This document shows positions 3,873-23,523 of a stretch of DNA of 23,523 nucleotides, in pieces (within the stretch, counting starts at the first letter, position 1; each line of letters opens with the position of its first letter). Source of the stretch: a virus; the IMG/VR virus record IMGVR_UViG_3300009034_000212, positions 1-23,523 of that record, one strand, 5' to 3'. Below the pieces are notes generated by a model that saw only the letters and a program-made list of their open reading frames with translations, did not search any database and was not told where the DNA came from. Position numbers and translations under genes: made by a program.

Positions 3873-4085
3873 TTATCCCCTCACTTTTCGGGCCAATGCT
3901 CTTTTAGCAGCCCGCTCTGGTAACTTTCTACCCTTGACTTCTTTCAAATGTCTTTTTGCTTCTGTTTTACTTAAACTTGGAGCTTTATGACTATTAGATA
4001 CTGCCACTCCAAATAATCGTCTTTGTTTTTCTGATACTATCGGCGTATGTTTTCTTCCGCTTTTTGGACAGCCTGCTCCTGACAT
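3873..4085 (-). CDS. Small basic protein, DUF3008-like
   Basis: This 70-residue basic protein contains SEKQRRLFGVA at about residues 18-28, a phrase typical of the DUF3008 family and related short phage proteins, followed by LSKTEAKRHLKEVKGRKLPERA. Those families have no known function. The start ATG shares one base with the TAA stop of the protease gene (TAATG), so the two genes are probably translationally coupled, with GGAAGCGGA as a weak SD. The charge (many Lys and Arg) would suit nucleic acid binding, which is inference. Confidence 0.62.
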   Translation of the reverse strand: MSGAGCPKSGRKHTPIVSEKQRRLFGVAVSNSHKAPSLSKTEAKRHLKEVKGRKLPERAAKRALARKVRG

Positions 4086-4750
4086 TATTCCGCTTCCTTC
4101 AATTCCTGAATTGCCAAATATTTATTTAGCATCAATTGGCATATTTTTGCTGGTATACAAAAATTCATCCCTTCTTCATTTGGAATATGCCACGAACAAA
4201 TTCCTAAAATATTATTATCTCCATCAAAAATCGGACTACCTGAATTACCTGGAACAAGGGGACAATCGGTAATAAAAACATTTTTGCCCTTAACAAAATC
4301 ATCTTCTACATTAACAGCAGAAATTATACCCCGAGTCATCACTGGGAAGTATGCATATGGATTACCAATTGCCCAAACTGTTTCTCCAACTATGGCATCA
4401 TCAAATTTTGCCACTAATTCTTTTTCAAGTGTTCTGATATAGATTAATCCCAAATCAGCTTCAGATTCTTTATACCAACTCACAGCCAAATGCTTTTTGC
4501 CATCGGGCCAAACAATTTGAATTTCATTAGCGTCTTCAACTATGTGGCCAGCAGTTATCAAAAGGTCATCGGCGACAAAAACTCCTGTCCCCTGCCGTTG
4601 TTCTTCGTATCGGCTCTCAACTTTGATTTTTACAATAGTTGGCTGTTGATTGGGCCGTAAATAAGAAAGAGCCGTTGGAGCAATAAACAAGTAAGATAAA
4701 ATAGTAAATATAATAAATGTAATAATCGGCAGAATAATCTTTTTCATCAT
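4085..4750 (-). CDS. Membrane-anchored trypsin-like serine protease
   Basis: The protein starts with a basic tail and a long hydrophobic segment (KKIILPIITFIIFTILSYLF), a signal anchor that would hold the protease domain outside the cytoplasm. The domain has all three catalytic residues of the chymotrypsin fold. Numbering from the longest frame at 4783, they are His80 in ITAGH, Asp110 in EADLGL and Ser181 in PGNSGSP. It resembles the protease domain of HtrA/DegP but has no PDZ domain. ATG 4750 follows GGGGGTGG closely; ATG 4747 is equally possible. It lies among late genes, between a DUF4326 gene and a DUF3008-like gene. Substrate and role are unknown: envelope damage, receptor processing and host defence are all open. 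Confidence 0.85.
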   Translation of the reverse strand: MMKKIILPIITFIIFTILSYLFIAPTALSYLRPNQQPTIVKIKVESRYEEQRQGTGVFVADDLLITAGHIVEDANEIQIVWPDGKKHLAVSWYKESEADLGLIYIRTLEKELVAKFDDAIVGETVWAIGNPYAYFPVMTRGIISAVNVEDDFVKGKNVFITDCPLVPGNSGSPIFDGDNNILGICSWHIPNEEGMNFCIPAKICQLMLNKYLAIQELKEAE

Positions 4751-4760
4751 CCACCCCCAA

Positions 4761-5069
4761 TTAAATTTGCTGACATAATTCAACTAAAATATCACCGTGA
4801 CAAGGCATAGGTTTACAAAAACAACCAAGTGTTTTACCACGTAACTCTTTCAAATGCTCAATTATCCACCTATTGCTGTAATTACCACTGGGATCGTTTA
4901 TTATGATTTCCTCTTTCCACTTTTTCCATTGTAATAACCACGTTTTGTATTCAGCAATTACAGCATCCCTGCTCATACTTCTACCCATTCGCCAGGGATT
5001 ACCCCATTTTGAACCACGACCAATATAAATATCATAAGGTTCTTTTTTACAATGAACTACTTTTGTCAT
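4761..5069 (-). CDS. DUF4326 domain protein
   Basis: Residues IGRGSKWGNPWRMGR near the N-terminus and LRGKTLGCFCKPMPCHGDIL near the C-terminus are the two conserved blocks of DUF4326, a family often found in phages and of unknown function. The conserved Cys and His residues of the second block suggest a metal or catalytic site. Its 102 residues are close to the usual domain length, so it is a single domain. The start is ATG 5069, with GGGGGAG three bases upstream; an in-frame ATG 12 bases earlier lacks that spacing. It sits directly upstream of the protease gene. Confidence 0.82.
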   Translation of the reverse strand: MTKVVHCKKEPYDIYIGRGSKWGNPWRMGRSMSRDAVIAEYKTWLLQWKKWKEEIIINDPSGNYSNRWIIEHLKELRGKTLGCFCKPMPCHGDILVELCQQI

Positions 5070-6029: not shown

Positions 6030-6587
6030 TTATTCCCCCGATTTAATTGTCATTAGTGATTCATTAGTCAATAACCGAATATTCCTTGTTCTTCCAATAT
6101 CTGTGAGTCCTACATCCTCAATCTTCAACCCCCACCCCCGACTTGCTTCCCGCAAACCAGAAAGAATCTCCCGCTCCAAATCGGCCAGACAACCCCGCAA
6201 CTCATCAAGCCCCCGCTGCGTCACAAATCGGAAGATAATCTTCAAGCCGGTATTTTGAATATTCTCATCATATTCAAAAACTTCTAAAATCGCCTTCCGT
6301 GCATTATCCACCCGATACCTTATCGTCCCCGAAATCGCCAACTCATGTCCATCTTTCGTCCATACACTCTGACACCGTAAATCCTTCACCTGTACTTTAA
6401 CCTTCACAGCTTCAATATGCTGAAAAAGGGGCACATACCAATAGAGACCCGCATCCAAATCCTTAATCCACACCCCAGCAAAAGGCCAACGGGCCGTTAT
6501 TCGCACCCCACCTTCATCGGGGTCAACCATCCAGGGGCGGGGGATGAAGCAGGTGAGCTTATTGATAAGCTGAATTAGCCAATGCAT
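6030..6587 (-). CDS. Band-7/SPFH (stomatin-like) domain protein
   Basis: The 185 residues match a compact SPFH domain: an N-terminal stretch (LIQLINKLTCFIP), then PDEGGVRI, GLYWYVPLFQHIEAV, a VKVKVQVKDL strand, TKDGHELAISGTIRYRVDNA, and a helical C-terminal part ending in REASRGWGLKIEDVGLTDIG. These are the usual landmarks of stomatin/prohibitin families, which build membrane-attached ring or microdomain scaffolds. The long C-terminal coiled coil of bacterial flotillins is missing. The SD GGAGGG is eight bases before the ATG, which shares a base with the upstream TAA. Context with a membrane protease and coiled-coil proteins suggests a membrane assembly, as HflK/HflC do with FtsH, but that parallel is inference. 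Confidence 0.85.
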   Translation of the reverse strand: MHWLIQLINKLTCFIPRPWMVDPDEGGVRITARWPFAGVWIKDLDAGLYWYVPLFQHIEAVKVKVQVKDLRCQSVWTKDGHELAISGTIRYRVDNARKAILEVFEYDENIQNTGLKIIFRFVTQRGLDELRGCLADLEREILSGLREASRGWGLKIEDVGLTDIGRTRNIRLLTNESLMTIKSGE

Positions 6588-7025: not shown

Positions 7026-7157
7026 TTTACACCCCCCAATTTGAGAATTGAAAAAAAGACTGCCCTATATGGTTCTTACCACTTTTACAAGCTAATCTTA
7101 TACCAAAATCCTAAAAATCCCCTTCTTTTTTCCTATTTTTCAGCAGATTTTTTGCTG

Positions 7158-7286
7158 GTTGTAGGGGTTATAAAAGATAGAGGGATTGTAGGGATTATAG
7201 GGTTATAGTTGTATGGATTATATGGGTTATAACCAACAGTTAGATTGTATGGATTGTATTGTTTGTATTATTTATATTATTTATAG
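7158..7286. repeat. Degenerate short repeats of the form RGGRTTRTA
   Basis: About ten imperfect copies of an 8-9 base unit (GGGGTTATA, GGGATTGTA, GGGATTATA, GGGTTATA, TGGATTATA, TGGATTGTA) stand almost back to back. They include the perfect palindrome GGTTATAACC at 7225-7234. The tract lies 130-260 bases upstream of the left-arm genes and is non-coding on both strands. It may be a binding array or low-complexity drift. From about 7287 to 7463 I see no gene and no clear element. Confidence 0.6.
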
Positions 7287-7463
7287 GTACGATTAGGGGG
7301 TCTAAGAACAACAGACTCCTATATCTCCATTGCCGAAGGCAAGGGTCATACCCCCCATACCCGCCCACATAGAGACCCCTCCAAAACCTTCTGAATGAAA
7401 CATAACTACCATTATAAGACGTTGCCCCACAGAATCAGCGTTGTTGGTGGGGTGAGGGTTGAT

Positions 7464-7496
7464 ATTATCGGGCGAAAGATAGGATTATCGGACGAA
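7464..7496. repeat. 13-base direct repeat, two copies
   Basis: ATTATCGGGCGAA at 7464-7476 and ATTATCGGACGAA at 7484-7496 match at 12 of 13 bases. The start-to-start distance is 20 bases, about two helical turns, as expected for a pair of protein-binding sites on one face of the DNA. Confidence 0.55.
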
Positions 7497-7562
7497 GCAG
7501 ACTACATAAGCGGATAATGAGTGGATAGCAAACAGATAATAGTGGAATATAGGTTCGGGTTG

Positions 7563-7618
7563 TAACGGTTATAACGATTATGACGACACTATCTTGCTAA
7601 AATGACACTATCTTGCTA
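7563..7618. repeat. 9-base tandem units and a 15-base direct repeat
   Basis: TAACGGTTA, TAACGATTA and TGACGACAC lie head to tail at 7563-7589. They run into two copies of GACACTATCTTGCTA at 7585-7599 and 7604-7618, which are identical and 19 bases apart. No gene covers this stretch. The arrangement looks like regulatory or initiator-binding sites. Confidence 0.6.
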
Positions 7619-7629
7619 TCCACCTCAAC

Positions 7630-7949
7630 TGTTCCTGACTTGTTCCCGACTTGTTCCTGACCTATGTCCCCTAAGGGGGAACAATTAAGTTGTGATATAA
7701 TCGGCAGTTATACTACTGTTCCTATTTGTTCCCCCTATTTTGGCTATATAAACATATGGCGTAGAGTTATACATATAAGGGTATATATAGAGAGTGTATA
7801 TAGAAAGCATATATAGTACGCCATAGATAGACTTTATGAAAAAAGGGGGAACAGTCGGGAACACCCCAGCTAAGTTGTTTGTTAGCCGATACTTAAGTGT
7901 TCCTATGAGAGTGACATTAGGGGGGAACAGGTCAGGAACACATAGGAAC
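7630..7949. repeat. TGTTCC/GGAACA box cluster, candidate origin or operator
   Basis: Three 11-base units (TGTTCCTGACT, TGTTCCCGACT, TGTTCCTGACC) lie in tandem at 7630-7662. Further TGTTCC or GGAACA boxes are near 7677, 7717, 7727, 7848, 7857, 7899, 7924 and 7935. Most boxes left of about 7740 read TGTTCC and most right of 7845 read GGAACA, so the region is roughly mirror-symmetric about an AT-rich centre. Iterons flanking an AT-rich element are the usual build of a replication origin. A repressor operator region between divergent arms is the other reading. Confidence 0.6.
7755..7825. repeat. 9-base inverted repeat around an AT-rich core
   Basis: TATGGCGTA at 7755-7763 and TACGCCATA at 7817-7825 are perfect inverted copies. 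The 53 bases between them are mostly A and T, with several TATATA steps. The element is in the centre of the mirrored TGTTCC/GGAACA boxes and could be the unwinding part of an origin. Confidence 0.6.
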
Positions 7950-7998
7950 TCGGTAGGGATTGTCTGGAATTAATTTTAAGGCCGCTGGTTAAGCCGTG

Positions 7999-8026
7999 TT
8001 GCAATTTGGCCGATATTTGTTATACT
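7999..8026 (+). promoter_or_regulatory. Sigma-70-like promoter P1
   Basis: A -35 TTGCAA (7999-8004) and an extended -10 TGTTATACT (hexamer 8021-8026) are 16 bases apart, directed toward the right arm. The spacer contains TTTGGCCGATA, which also occurs in the second promoter downstream. Confidence 0.5.
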
Positions 8027-8098
8027 TTTAATAGATGATCGATTGTAGGCCACGTGAGCAGCCTTCTCGTGAATGATAGATGGTAGGAGGATGTTAAA

Positions 8099-8211
8099 AT
8101 GGGTAAGTTTATACTCAGTTGTATATTGCTTTGAGTGCTGGCCTGGGGGCTATTGCTTTAGCGGGCAATGCTATTTATTGGCTGGCACAAAAAATTTTCA
8201 AGTTTTCGTAA
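8099..8211 (+). pseudogene. Leader ORF, possibly a frameshifted small membrane protein
   Basis: ATG 8099 has an excellent SD (TAGGAGG, eight bases upstream) but its frame stops after 11 residues (MGKFILSCILL). The -1 frame, open from 8107 to the TAA at 8209-8211, reads as a convincing membrane helix (LYIALSAGLGAIALAGNAIY, then WLAQKIFKFS) but has no start of its own. Either a one-base change broke a 35-40 residue membrane protein, or the short peptide is a translated leader. No classical slippery heptamer is visible at the join. An ATG at 8091 opens the third frame but directly abuts the SD. Confidence 0.35.
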
Positions 8212-8219
8212 ATTAGTGT

Positions 8220-8248
8220 TTGCATTTGGCCGATAGATAGTGTATAAT
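8220..8248 (+). promoter_or_regulatory. Sigma-70-like promoter P2
   Basis: A -35 TTGCAT (8220-8225) and a consensus -10 TATAAT (8243-8248) are 17 bases apart. The start of transcription would be near 8255, so the folded leader beginning at 8257 would lie at the very 5' end of the RNA. It is probably the main promoter for the small early genes from 8351. Confidence 0.62.
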
Positions 8249-8256
8249 TTAAGTAG

Positions 8257-8339
8257 AAAGCGGAAAGCAGCGGCCTTATTAGGCAATCGGGCCTTGCCGG
8301 TTTCAAGCTTTCCGCTTTTCTGGCAAGGCCCAATTTTTT
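8257..8339 (+). promoter_or_regulatory. Leader RNA with two interleaved stems and a terminator-like T-run
   Basis: AAAGCGGAAAGC (8257-8268) can pair with GCTTTCCGCTTT (8307-8318), 12 perfect pairs. GGGCCTTGCC (8289-8298) can pair with GGCAAGGCCC (8322-8331), 10 perfect pairs, followed by AATTTTTT. The order of arms is A-B-A'-B', so the two stems form either a pseudoknot or two competing folds. The second stem plus the T-run resembles an intrinsic terminator with a 23-base loop. A small hairpin GCCT-TATT-AGGC lies at 8273-8284. The SD of the next gene follows at once. An attenuator or ligand-sensing leader is inferred. Confidence 0.6.
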
Positions 8340-8350
8340 AAGAGGTAAAA

Positions 8351-8891: not shown

Positions 8892-8930
8892 AAGTGTAGA
8901 TCGGGCAAATAAAATAAAAAGCGGAAAGCA

Positions 8931-10776: not shown

Positions 10777-11544
10777 TCAATCTTGCAGGCAATCCGTAGT
10801 ACCTATCAAATCCTGGGGGACGAGGTGAACGTAAATCTTTTCTGTTATCTGTGTGCTGCTGTGGCCGAGTATCTTTGACACTTTAATTAGCGGCACACCG
10901 GCCCGAATCAAACGGGTAGCAGCAAGGTGACGCAAAGCATGAGGGCCAAATGGGGGAATTTTAGCTTTCTTAGCAAGTCTGACACAAAGACGATTAATGT
11001 AACACGGCCACTTAAATTGGCAAACAAATTGAAGGGACACATTTTTAGCTAAGATTTTCCTTGTAGTATCATTGAGCGGAATAGTTCTTGTTTTTTTACC
11101 CTTGCCGATTATGGTCATAAAACATTTTTTAGGCTCGATGATAGCTTGCGGCAAATCTAAAAATTCAGCACGGCGGAGAGCAGTGTTAGCAAAAAACTGG
11201 ATAACATCACGATCTTTCGGTGTAGCAATTGCAAGGATTAATCTGTATTCATTATCTGATAGACATCTTTGTTTGGGGGATGTTTCTTTGAGAAATTGGA
11301 TTGATTTAGCGGGGTTAGGATTCTTAAAATAATATCGGCAGTATGATCTAATGGCTGTTAAATTACAATTTGCTGTCCGATTAGTGCAAAACGTTAAAAT
11401 GTGGGTTAAATATCTTTCAATATCGGCAGTAGTTAATGAACCATTTGGCCCGATAAATTTGTGAAATCGCTGAACAATGCCAATATAGCTCTGAAAAGTG
11501 CTTTTTGTATGGTGCTGCTGACAATAAAGTATCCAGGCTTTCAT
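10777..11544 (-). CDS. int: Tyrosine recombinase (phage integrase)
   Basis: It carries out site-specific recombination between phage and host attachment sites. The N-terminal SAM-like core-binding domain spans about residues 1-80. The catalytic domain has Arg124 (TALRRAEF), Lys148 (IGKGKKTR), His202 and Arg205 (PHALRH), His228 (LGHSS) and the nucleophile Tyr238 (EKIYVHL). The catalytic set is complete and 255 residues is short but normal, close to XerC/D size with no arm-binding domain. The ATG has a strong SD (TAGGAGGAAAG). It is the only minus-strand gene in the right arm, so it probably has its own promoter. It implies a temperate life style. Confidence 0.93.
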   Translation of the reverse strand: MKAWILYCQQHHTKSTFQSYIGIVQRFHKFIGPNGSLTTADIERYLTHILTFCTNRTANCNLTAIRSYCRYYFKNPNPAKSIQFLKETSPKQRCLSDNEYRLILAIATPKDRDVIQFFANTALRRAEFLDLPQAIIEPKKCFMTIIGKGKKTRTIPLNDTTRKILAKNVSLQFVCQFKWPCYINRLCVRLAKKAKIPPFGPHALRHLAATRLIRAGVPLIKVSKILGHSSTQITEKIYVHLVPQDLIGTTDCLQD

Positions 11545-12833: not shown

Positions 12834-13247
12834 ATGTCAAATTCAACTTTGCCGCTCCGAACCTTTGACCAGTTTATCAAACACGCTTGTAAATGTTACA
12901 ACTTAGATTTTGTATCGGCTAAAAACATTATCTTAGAAAAACTCGCAAGGGTTCGGTTGTCCCCGATAGCTGTAGTGGCATACATCAACTGGGCTGACAA
13001 TGGGCTTTTAACAGAACAACAAATTGCCGATTGTCTTGGTATCACACAACAGGGGGTGCAGGATCATATTCAGCGGCTTCGTAAAGTTTGGCCCCACTTA
13101 CCTGGCAAACCTAAAAAGTATGTGGGCAATATGCCACTGGCAATTTCTACCGATATGGTGCGGTTGACACCAGATATTATCAACAACACTAAGAAACTCA
13201 AAGTGTGGGGGATTTATCATTTTACCGACACTGAAGATGCGGAGTGA
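12834..13247 (+). CDS. Helix-turn-helix DNA-binding protein (137 aa)
   Basis: Residues LLTEQQIADCLGITQQGVQD (59-78), continuing into HIQRLRKVWP, make a helix-turn-helix of the sigma-70 region 4 or ArsR-like kind. The N-terminal part (FDQFIKHACKCYNLDFVSAK) is helical, and the C-terminus is shorter and basic. It is probably a transcription regulator, perhaps of the middle genes that follow or of the boxes in the control region; that link is inferred. The SD GAGGGG is close before ATG 12834. A structured, gene-free stretch follows it. Confidence 0.72.
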   Translation: MSNSTLPLRTFDQFIKHACKCYNLDFVSAKNIILEKLARVRLSPIAVVAYINWADNGLLTEQQIADCLGITQQGVQDHIQRLRKVWPHLPGKPKKYVGNMPLAISTDMVRLTPDIINNTKKLKVWGIYHFTDTEDAE

Positions 13248-16305: not shown

Positions 16306-17070
16306 ATGAACTATCAATCCATTCTTGAAAAAGCGGGCTACCCAACAACCGCACTCGTGCTTGACTTCGAGAGCTACTATGACAAAGACTATTCCCTAAA
16401 GAAAATGAGCACCATCGAATACGTTTGTGATCCCCGATTTGAATTATTGGGATTAGGGTTTGAAAGATTGGGCGGCAGTCGTGTTTTATTTTATACTCCT
16501 GATGAAATTGGTAGTGTATTTGCATATTTACATGATTATTTTGGTGATAATCTTGAACGATGCACGATTGTCGGCCAAAATCTTTTTTTCGATTGTCTTA
16601 TTCTAAAGCGGCACTTTGGTATTACCCCCCAATATACAGTTGACATTCGGGATTTAGACAGAGTATGGGATGCTCGTGACAAACATTCTCTTGAATACAC
16701 GGCAAAAAAATGGAAAGCCCCAAAGCCCAAAGGTAAAGTTGACCAGTTCAAAGATTTTTATTGGGCCGATATGGATAAGGAAAAGCGACAGGCTCTTGAA
16801 GAATATTGCAAAACTGATATAGAAATTGAATCATTTTTGTTTCAGAAACTATTGCCTTTAATCCCAAATCCAGAAATAGAATTACCATTAGCAACACAAA
16901 CTTTGAAATTATTTTTGGAACCACAAATCCTTATAGACAAAGAACTTGGAGCAGAATTAAAGCAAAAAATGTTACTGGAAATGTTAAAGCCTTTGGAAAC
17001 TCTGCGGGAAAAAGGTTTTGATTATTCCCACGAAGATATATCGGGCAACATTTCTTTGGAAATTGCCTGA
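16306..17070 (+). CDS. Family A DNA polymerase, N-terminal part with 3'-5' exonuclease
   Basis: This is the proofreading half of a phage DNA polymerase. The DEDD exonuclease motifs are complete: LDFES (Asp20, Glu22), GQNLFFD (Asp96) and EYCKTD (Tyr167, Asp171), an arrangement of the DEDDy type. The frame then continues into the thumb-like part (residues 190-250) and stops at TGA 17068, where family members continue. The polymerase motifs follow at once in the +1 frame. No strong SD precedes the ATG. Either +1 frameshifting, a real split into two chains, or an indel explains the break. The total length of both parts, about 660 residues, is normal for one polymerase. Confidence 0.9.
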   Translation: MNYQSILEKAGYPTTALVLDFESYYDKDYSLKKMSTIEYVCDPRFELLGLGFERLGGSRVLFYTPDEIGSVFAYLHDYFGDNLERCTIVGQNLFFDCLILKRHFGITPQYTVDIRDLDRVWDARDKHSLEYTAKKWKAPKPKGKVDQFKDFYWADMDKEKRQALEEYCKTDIEIESFLFQKLLPLIPNPEIELPLATQTLKLFLEPQILIDKELGAELKQKMLLEMLKPLETLREKGFDYSHEDISGNISLEIA

Positions 17071-18295
17071 TAATGAGCAAGTGCCAACGAAAATGGGTAA
17101 AAAGGGATTAATTCCTGCATTAGCCCAAGAAGATGAAGGATTGCGATATTTACTGGGGCATGAAAAAGAAATTGTCCGATTATTAGCTAAAGCACGAGTG
17201 GCTATTAAAAGCTGGCCTCTACATATAAAACGGGTGGATAACATTCTAAACCAAGCAGTATGTTCTAATGGTAAAATCGGAGCACCATTATCTTATTATG
17301 CAGGACATTTAGGCCGATGGGGTGGAACTGAAGGAATCAACTTACAGAATCTTGGGGGACGAGGGCGGGGTAAGCCTATCCACCCACTTATCAGTCAAGT
17401 GCGGCAAATGCTTAAAGCTCCTGATGGGTATATTTTTGGGATTCCCGATTATTCTCAAATAGAAGCCCGAATCCTTGCTTGGTTCGCTGGGCAAAATGAT
17501 TTACTTCAGACATTCAAAGAAGGTAAAAGCCCCTATTCTGAATTTGCAACAGAACTTTTTCAATGTCCTGTACGAAAACCAGAAGATACAGATCCCGAAC
17601 CAGTTCGCAAACAGTTGGCTGTTCAATATGGGTTTGGAAAAGATGCTATTCTCGGCTGTGGCTATGGGATGGGCACTAATAAATTTTATGCTCGTTGTCG
17701 TGAGAATGTAAACTTACGGCCATTATTTGATAGCGGGGAATATGATTGGGATTTTGTTGACAAGCTAATTAAAACTTATCGGAGTAAGTATTTCAAAATT
17801 CCAGAATTCTGGCGAAAAGTAGAAAAAGCATGGAAGTTTGTGACTAAATACCCGAAAGAAGTTGTTGATTTGTTGCAACCTTATTGTGGCCCCGCCCCAC
17901 CAAGATTAAAATTTTGGTATGAAAATAATGCTACTTTTATTGGGCTTCCTTCTGGCCGATTTATCCGCTACCCTTATGCCAGTGTCAACAAACAGGACGA
18001 TTTACTTTATCGTTGGGGCCACCTATGGGGCGGTTCTATCACCGAAAATATTGTGCAAGCTACGGCTCGTGACATTCTGGCAGAAGCATTGCTCCGATTA
18101 GAAAATGCAGGTTACAATATTTTATTTCATAGTCACGATGAAATAATCTGTTTACTAAGTGATTTTACATCAAGCAAATCTACTACCGAACTTTGGCTAC
18201 AGGGGATGATAAATCTCATGTCCTATGTTCCATACTGGGCAATTGGTTTGCCTATTAGTGTTGAAGGAAAATTGTGTGAAAGGTATGAAAAATGA
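17018..18295 (+). CDS. Family A DNA polymerase, C-terminal polymerase part
   Basis: The open frame starts at 17018, but the part resembling polymerases begins near 17063 (LPDNEQVPTK). Motif A is PDYSQIEARI with the catalytic Asp144. Motif B, around KDAILGCGYGMG, has the Lys and Tyr-Gly of finger helix O. Motif C is HSHDE with Asp374. All catalytic residues are present, so the product should be active. There is no SD before the first ATG (17093), which argues against independent translation and for a frameshift or sequencing error. Its stop overlaps the next ATG (ATGA). Confidence 0.9.
   Translation: MIIPTKIYRATFLWKLPDNEQVPTKMGKKGLIPALAQEDEGLRYLLGHEKEIVRLLAKARVAIKSWPLHIKRVDNILNQAVCSNGKIGAPLSYYAGHLGRWGGTEGINLQNLGGRGRGKPIHPLISQVRQMLKAPDGYIFGIPDYSQIEARILAWFAGQNDLLQTFKEGKSPYSEFATELFQCPVRKPEDTDPEPVRKQLAVQYGFGKDAILGCGYGMGTNKFYARCRENVNLRPLFDSGEYDWDFVDKLIKTYRSKYFKIPEFWRKVEKAWKFVTKYPKEVVDLLQPYCGPAPPRLKFWYENNATFIGLPSGRFIRYPYASVNKQDDLLYRWGHLWGGSITENIVQATARDILAEALLRLENAGYNILFHSHDEIICLLSDFTSSKSTTELWLQGMINLMSYVPYWAIGLPISVEGKLCERYEK
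17053..17071 (+). other. Site of +1 frame change within the polymerase gene
   Basis: Frame 0 reads Ser-Leu-Glu-Ile-Ala-stop and the +1 frame picks up Leu-Pro-Asp-Asn-Glu. Skipping one base at A17062 gives SLELPDNEQ; skipping the T of the TGA gives SLEIADNEQ. Both continue the family pattern. No known +1 slippery motif such as CUU-UGA is present, so an indel is at least as likely. Confidence 0.7.
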
Positions 18296-23146: not shown

Positions 23147-23154
23147 ATGTAATG
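23147..23154 (+). promoter_or_regulatory. Start-stop element (ATGTAATG) before the primase gene
   Basis: The ATG at 23147, ideally spaced from GGAGGAG (23135-23141), is followed directly by TAA (23150-23152), which shares its last base with the primase ATG at 23152. Ribosomes could start, stop at once and restart. The 68 bases before it have no gene; a GGAC/GTCC mini-hairpin and one more TTGTTCCCC box (23084) are present. Confidence 0.4.
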
Positions 23155-23523
23155 GACATGCAAGCCAAGTTCCTACAATATCAAAAAAATATCTACCCGA
23201 TGATGGTAGAGCAATTAGCGGGGGGCTTGGGGACAACTGTAGAATCTATCAATAAACTGGGTGTCGGCTTCTGCCCTGGCAGTCAAAGCTGGGTCTGGGC
23301 TGAAAGGGATGAACAGGGGGAAATTGTTGGTCTTGGTCACTATTACCCCGATGGAAAAAAACGGATGGAGGAAGGGTCTAAAAGGGGACTAATATATGAG
23401 TGTACGGGAAGTATTAAAAAAGAAAATGTTTATCCGCGAAGCAAGTTTATTCGGACATATAACGCAAGTGTGGATTGCCCGTTATGTGGAAAAAGGGATT
23501 GGTGTCTCATATCTGATGAGGAT
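23152..23523 (+). CDS. Primase (DnaG/Toprim-like), N-terminal 124 residues (cut by window edge)
   Basis: The frame is open to the window edge. Residues 30-85 (VESINKLGVGFCPGSQSWVW, then GEIVGLGHYYPDGKKRMEEG and SKRGLIYE) match the N-terminal part of phage primases or primase-helicases that precedes the Toprim domain. A zinc knuckle, DCPLCGKRDWC, is at about 108-118, unusual in that it follows that part. The catalytic region lies beyond the window. ATG 23152 has GGAGGAG upstream. The place, after ssDNA-binding and ATPase genes, supports a replication role. A fused helicase cannot be ruled in or out here. Confidence 0.7.
   Translation, partial: MDMQAKFLQYQKNIYPMMVEQLAGGLGTTVESINKLGVGFCPGSQSWVWAERDEQGEIVGLGHYYPDGKKRMEEGSKRGLIYECTGSIKKENVYPRSKFIRTYNASVDCPLCGKRDWCLISDED

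Follow-up and report, generated by a model that had tools for sequence, protein, structure and literature searches.

A mirrored iteron array as the probable replication origin of an environmental tailed phage, with array geometry kept and box letters changed among relatives

The closest described systems are the origins of PICIs, of P4 and of the Streptococcus phage Sfi21. In PICI origins one iteron set lies on either side of an A+T-rich region, and the C-terminal domain of SaPI Rep is the part that binds iterons (PMC6092414, PMC7581432). The annotated origin of Sfi21 (NC_000872, 34487-34784) has 10 of its 11 GTTAC boxes mirrored about a core of 89% A+T; the inner pairs are 8 bp apart, with 44-46 bp to the next box. 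P4 alpha is built, in order, of a zinc ribbon, Toprim, D5_N, DUF5906 and Pox_D5, and the Sfi21 initiator combines DUF5906 and Pox_D5. Here we describe an array of similar layout in a tailed phage.

The window, the whole stretch of 23,523 nucleotides analysed here, is a 23.5-kb piece of a tailed-phage genome whose relatives have genomes of approximately 48 kb. Its left arm points leftward and carries the portal and TerL genes; the right side holds an integrase (reversed), a family A polymerase, a PD-(D/E)XK nuclease, a Sak4-like ATPase and a final ORF cut by the contig end. The leftward and rightward arms meet at a noncoding stretch of ~1.3 kb (~7026-8350) that contains the array, and the placing of the element between divergent arms in an earlier note on this DNA is correct. 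The array region showed no noteworthy DNA similarity to known phages and no match in an Rfam search, and a host search yielded just five MAG contigs, of which four measure ~31-51 kb. Some other genes deserve mention. An SPFH/Band 7 protein (6030-6587, - strand; Pfam E 5e-19), kept in relatives G001, G002 and G005, appears unusual for a phage of such size. A trypsin-like serine protease (4085-4783, - strand) with a probable membrane anchor is conserved near the terminase genes in most relatives. The family A polymerase is split into an exonuclease ORF (16306-17070) and a polymerase ORF (17018-18295) that overlap by ~50 bp; the gene of G002 is broken near the corresponding position whilst G001, G003 and G007 have a single ORF, and the split may be a true fission of the gene and not an error of sequencing.

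The array (7630-7940) consists of 11 exact TGTTCC/GGAACA boxes, with + boxes at 7630, 7641, 7652, 7717, 7727 and 7898 and - boxes at 7678, 7848, 7858, 7924 and 7935. Start-to-start gaps are 11, 11, 26, 39 and 10 bp on the left, 121 bp across the centre and 10, 40, 26 and 11 bp on the right. The left arm opens with an outer tandem of three + boxes (7630-7657; 11-bp spacing, TGTTCCyGACt), the three 11-base units recognised earlier, followed by a single inverted box (7678-7683, -) and an inner pair directed toward the core (7717-7732, +; 10-bp spacing). In the right arm are an inner pair (7848-7863, -), a single inverted box (7898-7903, +) and an outer tandem of two boxes (7924-7940, -), succeeded by a degenerate AGGAAC at 7944-7949. 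The change of orientation across the centre that the earlier note described is real but incomplete, the actual order being +++ - ++ on the left and -- + -- on the right. Mirror pairing about 7790.5 accounts for 10 of the 11 boxes, a level reached by 0/400 and 1/300 controls. A chance cluster was ruled out by simulation: 320-bp trials gave a mean of 0.12-0.19 TGTTCC/GGAACA boxes and a maximum of 2 (2000 trials), so that 11 were observed against ~0.2 expected, and the best clustering of any hexamer in 30 simulated windows was 7 copies per 320 bp.

Between the inner pairs, a 9-bp inverted repeat, TATGGCGTA (7755-7763, +) and TACGCCATA (7817-7825, -), bounds an A+T-rich core (7764-7816; 26% GC). 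The repeat is exact, its centre (7790.0) falls on the box dyad (7790), and it has no other copy in the window even when one mismatch is allowed. A+T content is 74% between the repeat arms and 69% between the inner boxes, against 61% for the contig. The core contains three 13-bp-spaced units with TATATAG at 7778, 7791 and 7804, and its 60-bp stability ranks 75 of 23462 contig windows, which places it among the least stable although it is not the least. It is the probable site of strand opening. As in origins of the P4/SaPI/Sfi21 type, two oppositely oriented sets of short iterons are present with an A+T-rich region between them.

Other signals were observed around the array. Just to its left are a tandem GACACTATCTTGCTA with 19-bp spacing (7585-7618) and an imperfect inverted GTGGATAGCAA/TTGCTATCCAC pair at 7521/7613 (7521-7623). 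Of the DnaA-type TTATCCACA boxes that would cluster in an oriC-like origin, this imperfect pair alone was noticed, by eye. To its right, the leader of the first rightward ORF contains a strong RNA hairpin (8285-8335; ~-36 kcal/mol for 86 nt, z -3.5), and there are AAAGCGGAAAG-like repeats at 8911 and 9570.

Relatives were gathered via TerL. A search by letters found the TGTTCC array to be absent from them, and we rejected the idea that the box is kept by letters, as it changes among relatives. However, when the DNA upstream of TerL was searched blind for mirrored arrays of whatever hexamer, arrays of other hexamers were identified at the corresponding divergent junction in at least seven. These are TGTCCC (L046/G001 and G004), TGAACG (L044), CTAGGT (L057/G003), GTCCAT (L074/G002), TAGTCC (L018/G007) and GTCCAG (G009), with weaker arrays of TGAGTA in L004 and GTACTA in L039. 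Gaps are near those of the window, as in G001 (11, 11, 27, 40, 9, then 124 across the centre, then 9) and G002 (76, 43, 9, then 131, then 9, 42, 21). A close pair (7-11 bp) adjoining a gap of 39-46 bp occurs in 14/20 arrays, against ~2 expected for random positions; these arrays come from several phage families, including P4 and Sfi21, and the size range was picked after seeing the gaps. Since this spacing is shared despite different boxes, there appears to be constraint on the layout of the array and none on its letters. The conservation in relatives that the earlier note proposed to look for thus exists at the level of geometry and junction, whilst the letters of the box differ.

The blind method found no array in about half of the relatives, and no strong mirrored hexamer array was present in G005, G008, G075, G079, G089, G092 and others with a similar initiator. 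Several candidates were discarded as repeats: a GGAACA cluster in L137 is a same-strand repeat of 15-bp period, probably coding, and GCACGC in L018 and GCAGCA in L063 are tandem repeats. At its skew minimum (~23.2-23.6 kb), L213 (G006) has same-strand ACTACT repeats at 9-bp spacing instead of a mirrored array. A wider proposal, which we put forward tentatively and regard as rather doubtful, is that a large family of free-standing tailed phages has one origin geometry, in which iteron letters change by lineage (TGTTCC, TGTCCC, GTCCAT, GTCCAG, CTAGGT, TAGTCC, TGAACG, TTACCC) and spacing and mirror stay. If so, origin and initiator would be freely diverging, mutually specific pairs, and copying of the origin by satellites or rival phages would perhaps drive the divergence.

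Cumulative GC skew, which the earlier note had suggested checking near 7750, reaches its minimum at 7141 in the window, and in most array-bearing relatives the minimum is no more than 0.5 kb from the array. In G001-G004 and G009 the minima are 23 to 422 bp from the array start and the maxima 21-25 kb away, about half a genome. Arrays in the more distant G080, G081, G084 and G087 lie 1.0-2.0 kb from the skew minimum. Genes are mostly oriented away from the array and therefore transcription could cause the skew. At third codon positions, however, the sign of the skew is kept in those few ORFs that run the opposite way (17 ORFs, of which some may be spurious); the window integrase, for example, has 53 G vs 36 C on the + strand. 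This weakly favours replication over transcription as the cause.

The probable initiator is encoded by the last ORF of the window (23152-23523, +), of which the contig end leaves the N-terminal 124 residues. Searched alone in viral contigs the fragment found no relatives; they were reached via the TerL relatives, nine of nine long ones matching it at 36-50% identity (blastp, E 9e-19 to 3e-31) in full-length proteins of 730-781 residues (~770). Domains beyond the fragment were read in the relatives' proteins only: D5_N in most of those scanned, DUF5906 (the SF3 helicase core), a weak Toprim match in some and a C-terminal RFX/Pox_D5-like domain. A profile of these primase-helicases matches PDB 7ola/7om0 (E 4e-21), which P4 alpha also matches (E 1e-7). 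The C-terminal domain matches RFX5 and 7ola by sequence, and AlphaFold2 models it as an RFX-type winged helix (pLDDT 84) that resembles RFX5 and the RFX1 complex with its X-box, 1dp7 (TM 0.84, on the target). Aligned by hhalign with P4 alpha alone (one sequence), the C-terminal profile gave no significant match. The initiator is likely a ~770-aa protein of Toprim, D5_N, SF3 helicase and RFX-like winged helix, in the domain order of P4 alpha, and the window's own copy would carry its helicase and DNA-binding domains beyond the contig end. The RFX half-site is GTTNCC, which is strikingly like the GTTCC of the box and offers a lead on recognition.

Letters of the box may go with the form of the winged helix. 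The winged helices of four relatives with TGTCC-type boxes resemble one another, whilst TAGTCC and CTAGGT go with a more divergent pair. This is suggestive of a pairing, but the groups follow phylogeny. A prediction made from this, that G005 and G008, with a similar winged helix, would have TGTCC arrays, failed; none was found in either. The array and the initiator gene are ~15 kb apart in the window. Across 80 related loci, the 10 kb around the initiator gene were almost devoid of arrays, and closeness of the two in the window's own kind was rejected.

The same box occurs in other phage families. Scanning viral contigs for TGTTCCNGACNTGTTCC gave 112 stretches, of which 67 had five or more boxes within 350 bp (a count that leaves out L137, a repeat artefact); a control with reversed letters gave none. 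L110 contains a perfect array of twelve boxes, 12/12 mirror-paired, which begins 5 bp downstream of an SF3 helicase gene, and in L150 the array begins 22 bp downstream of a VapE-type SF3 helicase gene. In a third set, the gene encodes an AAA_25 helicase and the distance to the array start is 10-20 bp at 52 of 55 loci. The TGTTCC array thus accompanies replication helicases, which belong to two superfamilies. An SF3 helicase in all TGTTCC-array phages was rejected: DUF5906 was found only in L110 and L150 among the 26 tested, and many others use AAA_25 helicases. Neither DUF5906 nor D5_N occurred in any of 24 control records that contain the bare pattern.

Repeated boxes between divergent arms could also be a large operator, at which a phage regulator such as the HTH protein at 12834 would control divergent promoters. 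Many repressors bind repeated boxes, and there are promoter-like sites pointing rightward (7999-8026 and 8219-8248) and leftward (7304-7276). A 20-bp repeat GTGTTGCAATTTGGCCGATA followed by a -10-like TATACT/TATAAT occupies 7996-8030 and 8216-8250, and these repeats are candidates for two rightward phage promoters; the promoter-like repeats are, however, outside the array. Moreover, a strict mirror with an A+T-rich core is the layout of known origins (PMC6092414), and L173-type phages carry an array of the same box 3′ of a helicase gene. The HTH protein, named earlier as a possible binder, has a blastp homologue in only 1/9 long relatives against 9/9 for the primase-helicase, which argues against it in this role. 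We therefore regard an operator as improbable.

Two further functions are far less probable still. The boxes could be arm-type sites of an attP served by the tyrosine integrase (10777-11544), as the phage has an integrase and oppositely oriented short arm sites are possible in attP (they are annotated in P4). In an attP, however, the crossover core and the arm sites adjoin int, whereas here the integrase is 2.8 kb off with other genes between, and G001, G002 and G003 have arrays and no blastp homologue of the window integrase in the regions searched. A packaging site (cos/pac) bound by terminase would fit the terminase genes, which lie in the same arm at a distance of 4 kb. However, in unrelated phages arrays of the same box adjoin helicase genes, and the TGTTCC box is missing from other relatives whose terminases are similar. 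We give each of these two very little credence.

We consider it very probable that a tailed phage of ~48 kb replicates bidirectionally from this element, an origin of the P4/Sfi21/SaPI/PICI type used by the phage's own primase-helicase. The candidate origin of the earlier note is supported because the array is conserved, in geometry and not in letters, and because the cumulative skew minimum is located there; that relatives keep the geometry and change the letters makes it a candidate site of replication start. By analogy with SaPI Rep and P4 alpha, the primase-helicase would bind the boxes of the two head-to-head six-base arrays through its C-terminal winged helix and assemble on each arm, one ring per arm. 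The rings would then melt the A+T-rich core that the arrays flank and depart from it on both sides, serving as replicative helicase and bringing their own primase, to give bidirectional forks. An origin of P4 type would thus recur among tailed phages of the environment, at a distance from the initiator gene and with box letters that can be exchanged. Moreover, such natural pairs of origin and initiator make the box specificity of an RFX-like winged helix testable, and origins of uncultured phages may be located from their geometry and skew instead of their sequence.

Lastly, we compare the array with the known systems. SaPI/PICI origins (PMC6092414, PMC7581432) lie in islands, immediately 3′ of rep, whereas this one belongs to a complete phage and is ~15 kb from the initiator gene, and SaPI has an AEP primase in place of the Toprim of the window's type. 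Phages with AAA_25 (RepA-like) primase-helicases (the L173, L085, L146 and L190 groups) share the box and tandem and mirrored arrays, and the L173 helicase has a probable C-terminal winged helix; they differ in helicase superfamily and in that most of them have the array 10-20 bp beyond the 3′ end of the helicase gene. Sfi21 resembles the window in mirror and core and differs in its box, in an origin directly 3′ of the initiator gene and in a Prim-Pol primase that is a separate protein. P4 (NC_001609) has one arm at ori and a separate crr, vs two mirrored arms in the window, and an 8-bp box, TGTTCACC, whose polarity, read from the close pair, is opposite to that of the window boxes. Nevertheless, P4 ori/crr shares the box core TGTTC and the grouping of tandem and inverted boxes, the type I repeats of ori stand in the order ---+-- with gaps of 10, 11, 21, 44 and 10 against 11, 11, 26, 39 and 10 here, and P4 alpha is like the relatives' initiator from Toprim through D5_N and DUF5906 to a C-terminal winged helix. 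The box, which the earlier note did not recognise, is close to the P4 type I repeats and, with GTTCC against GTTAC, to the box of Sfi21.
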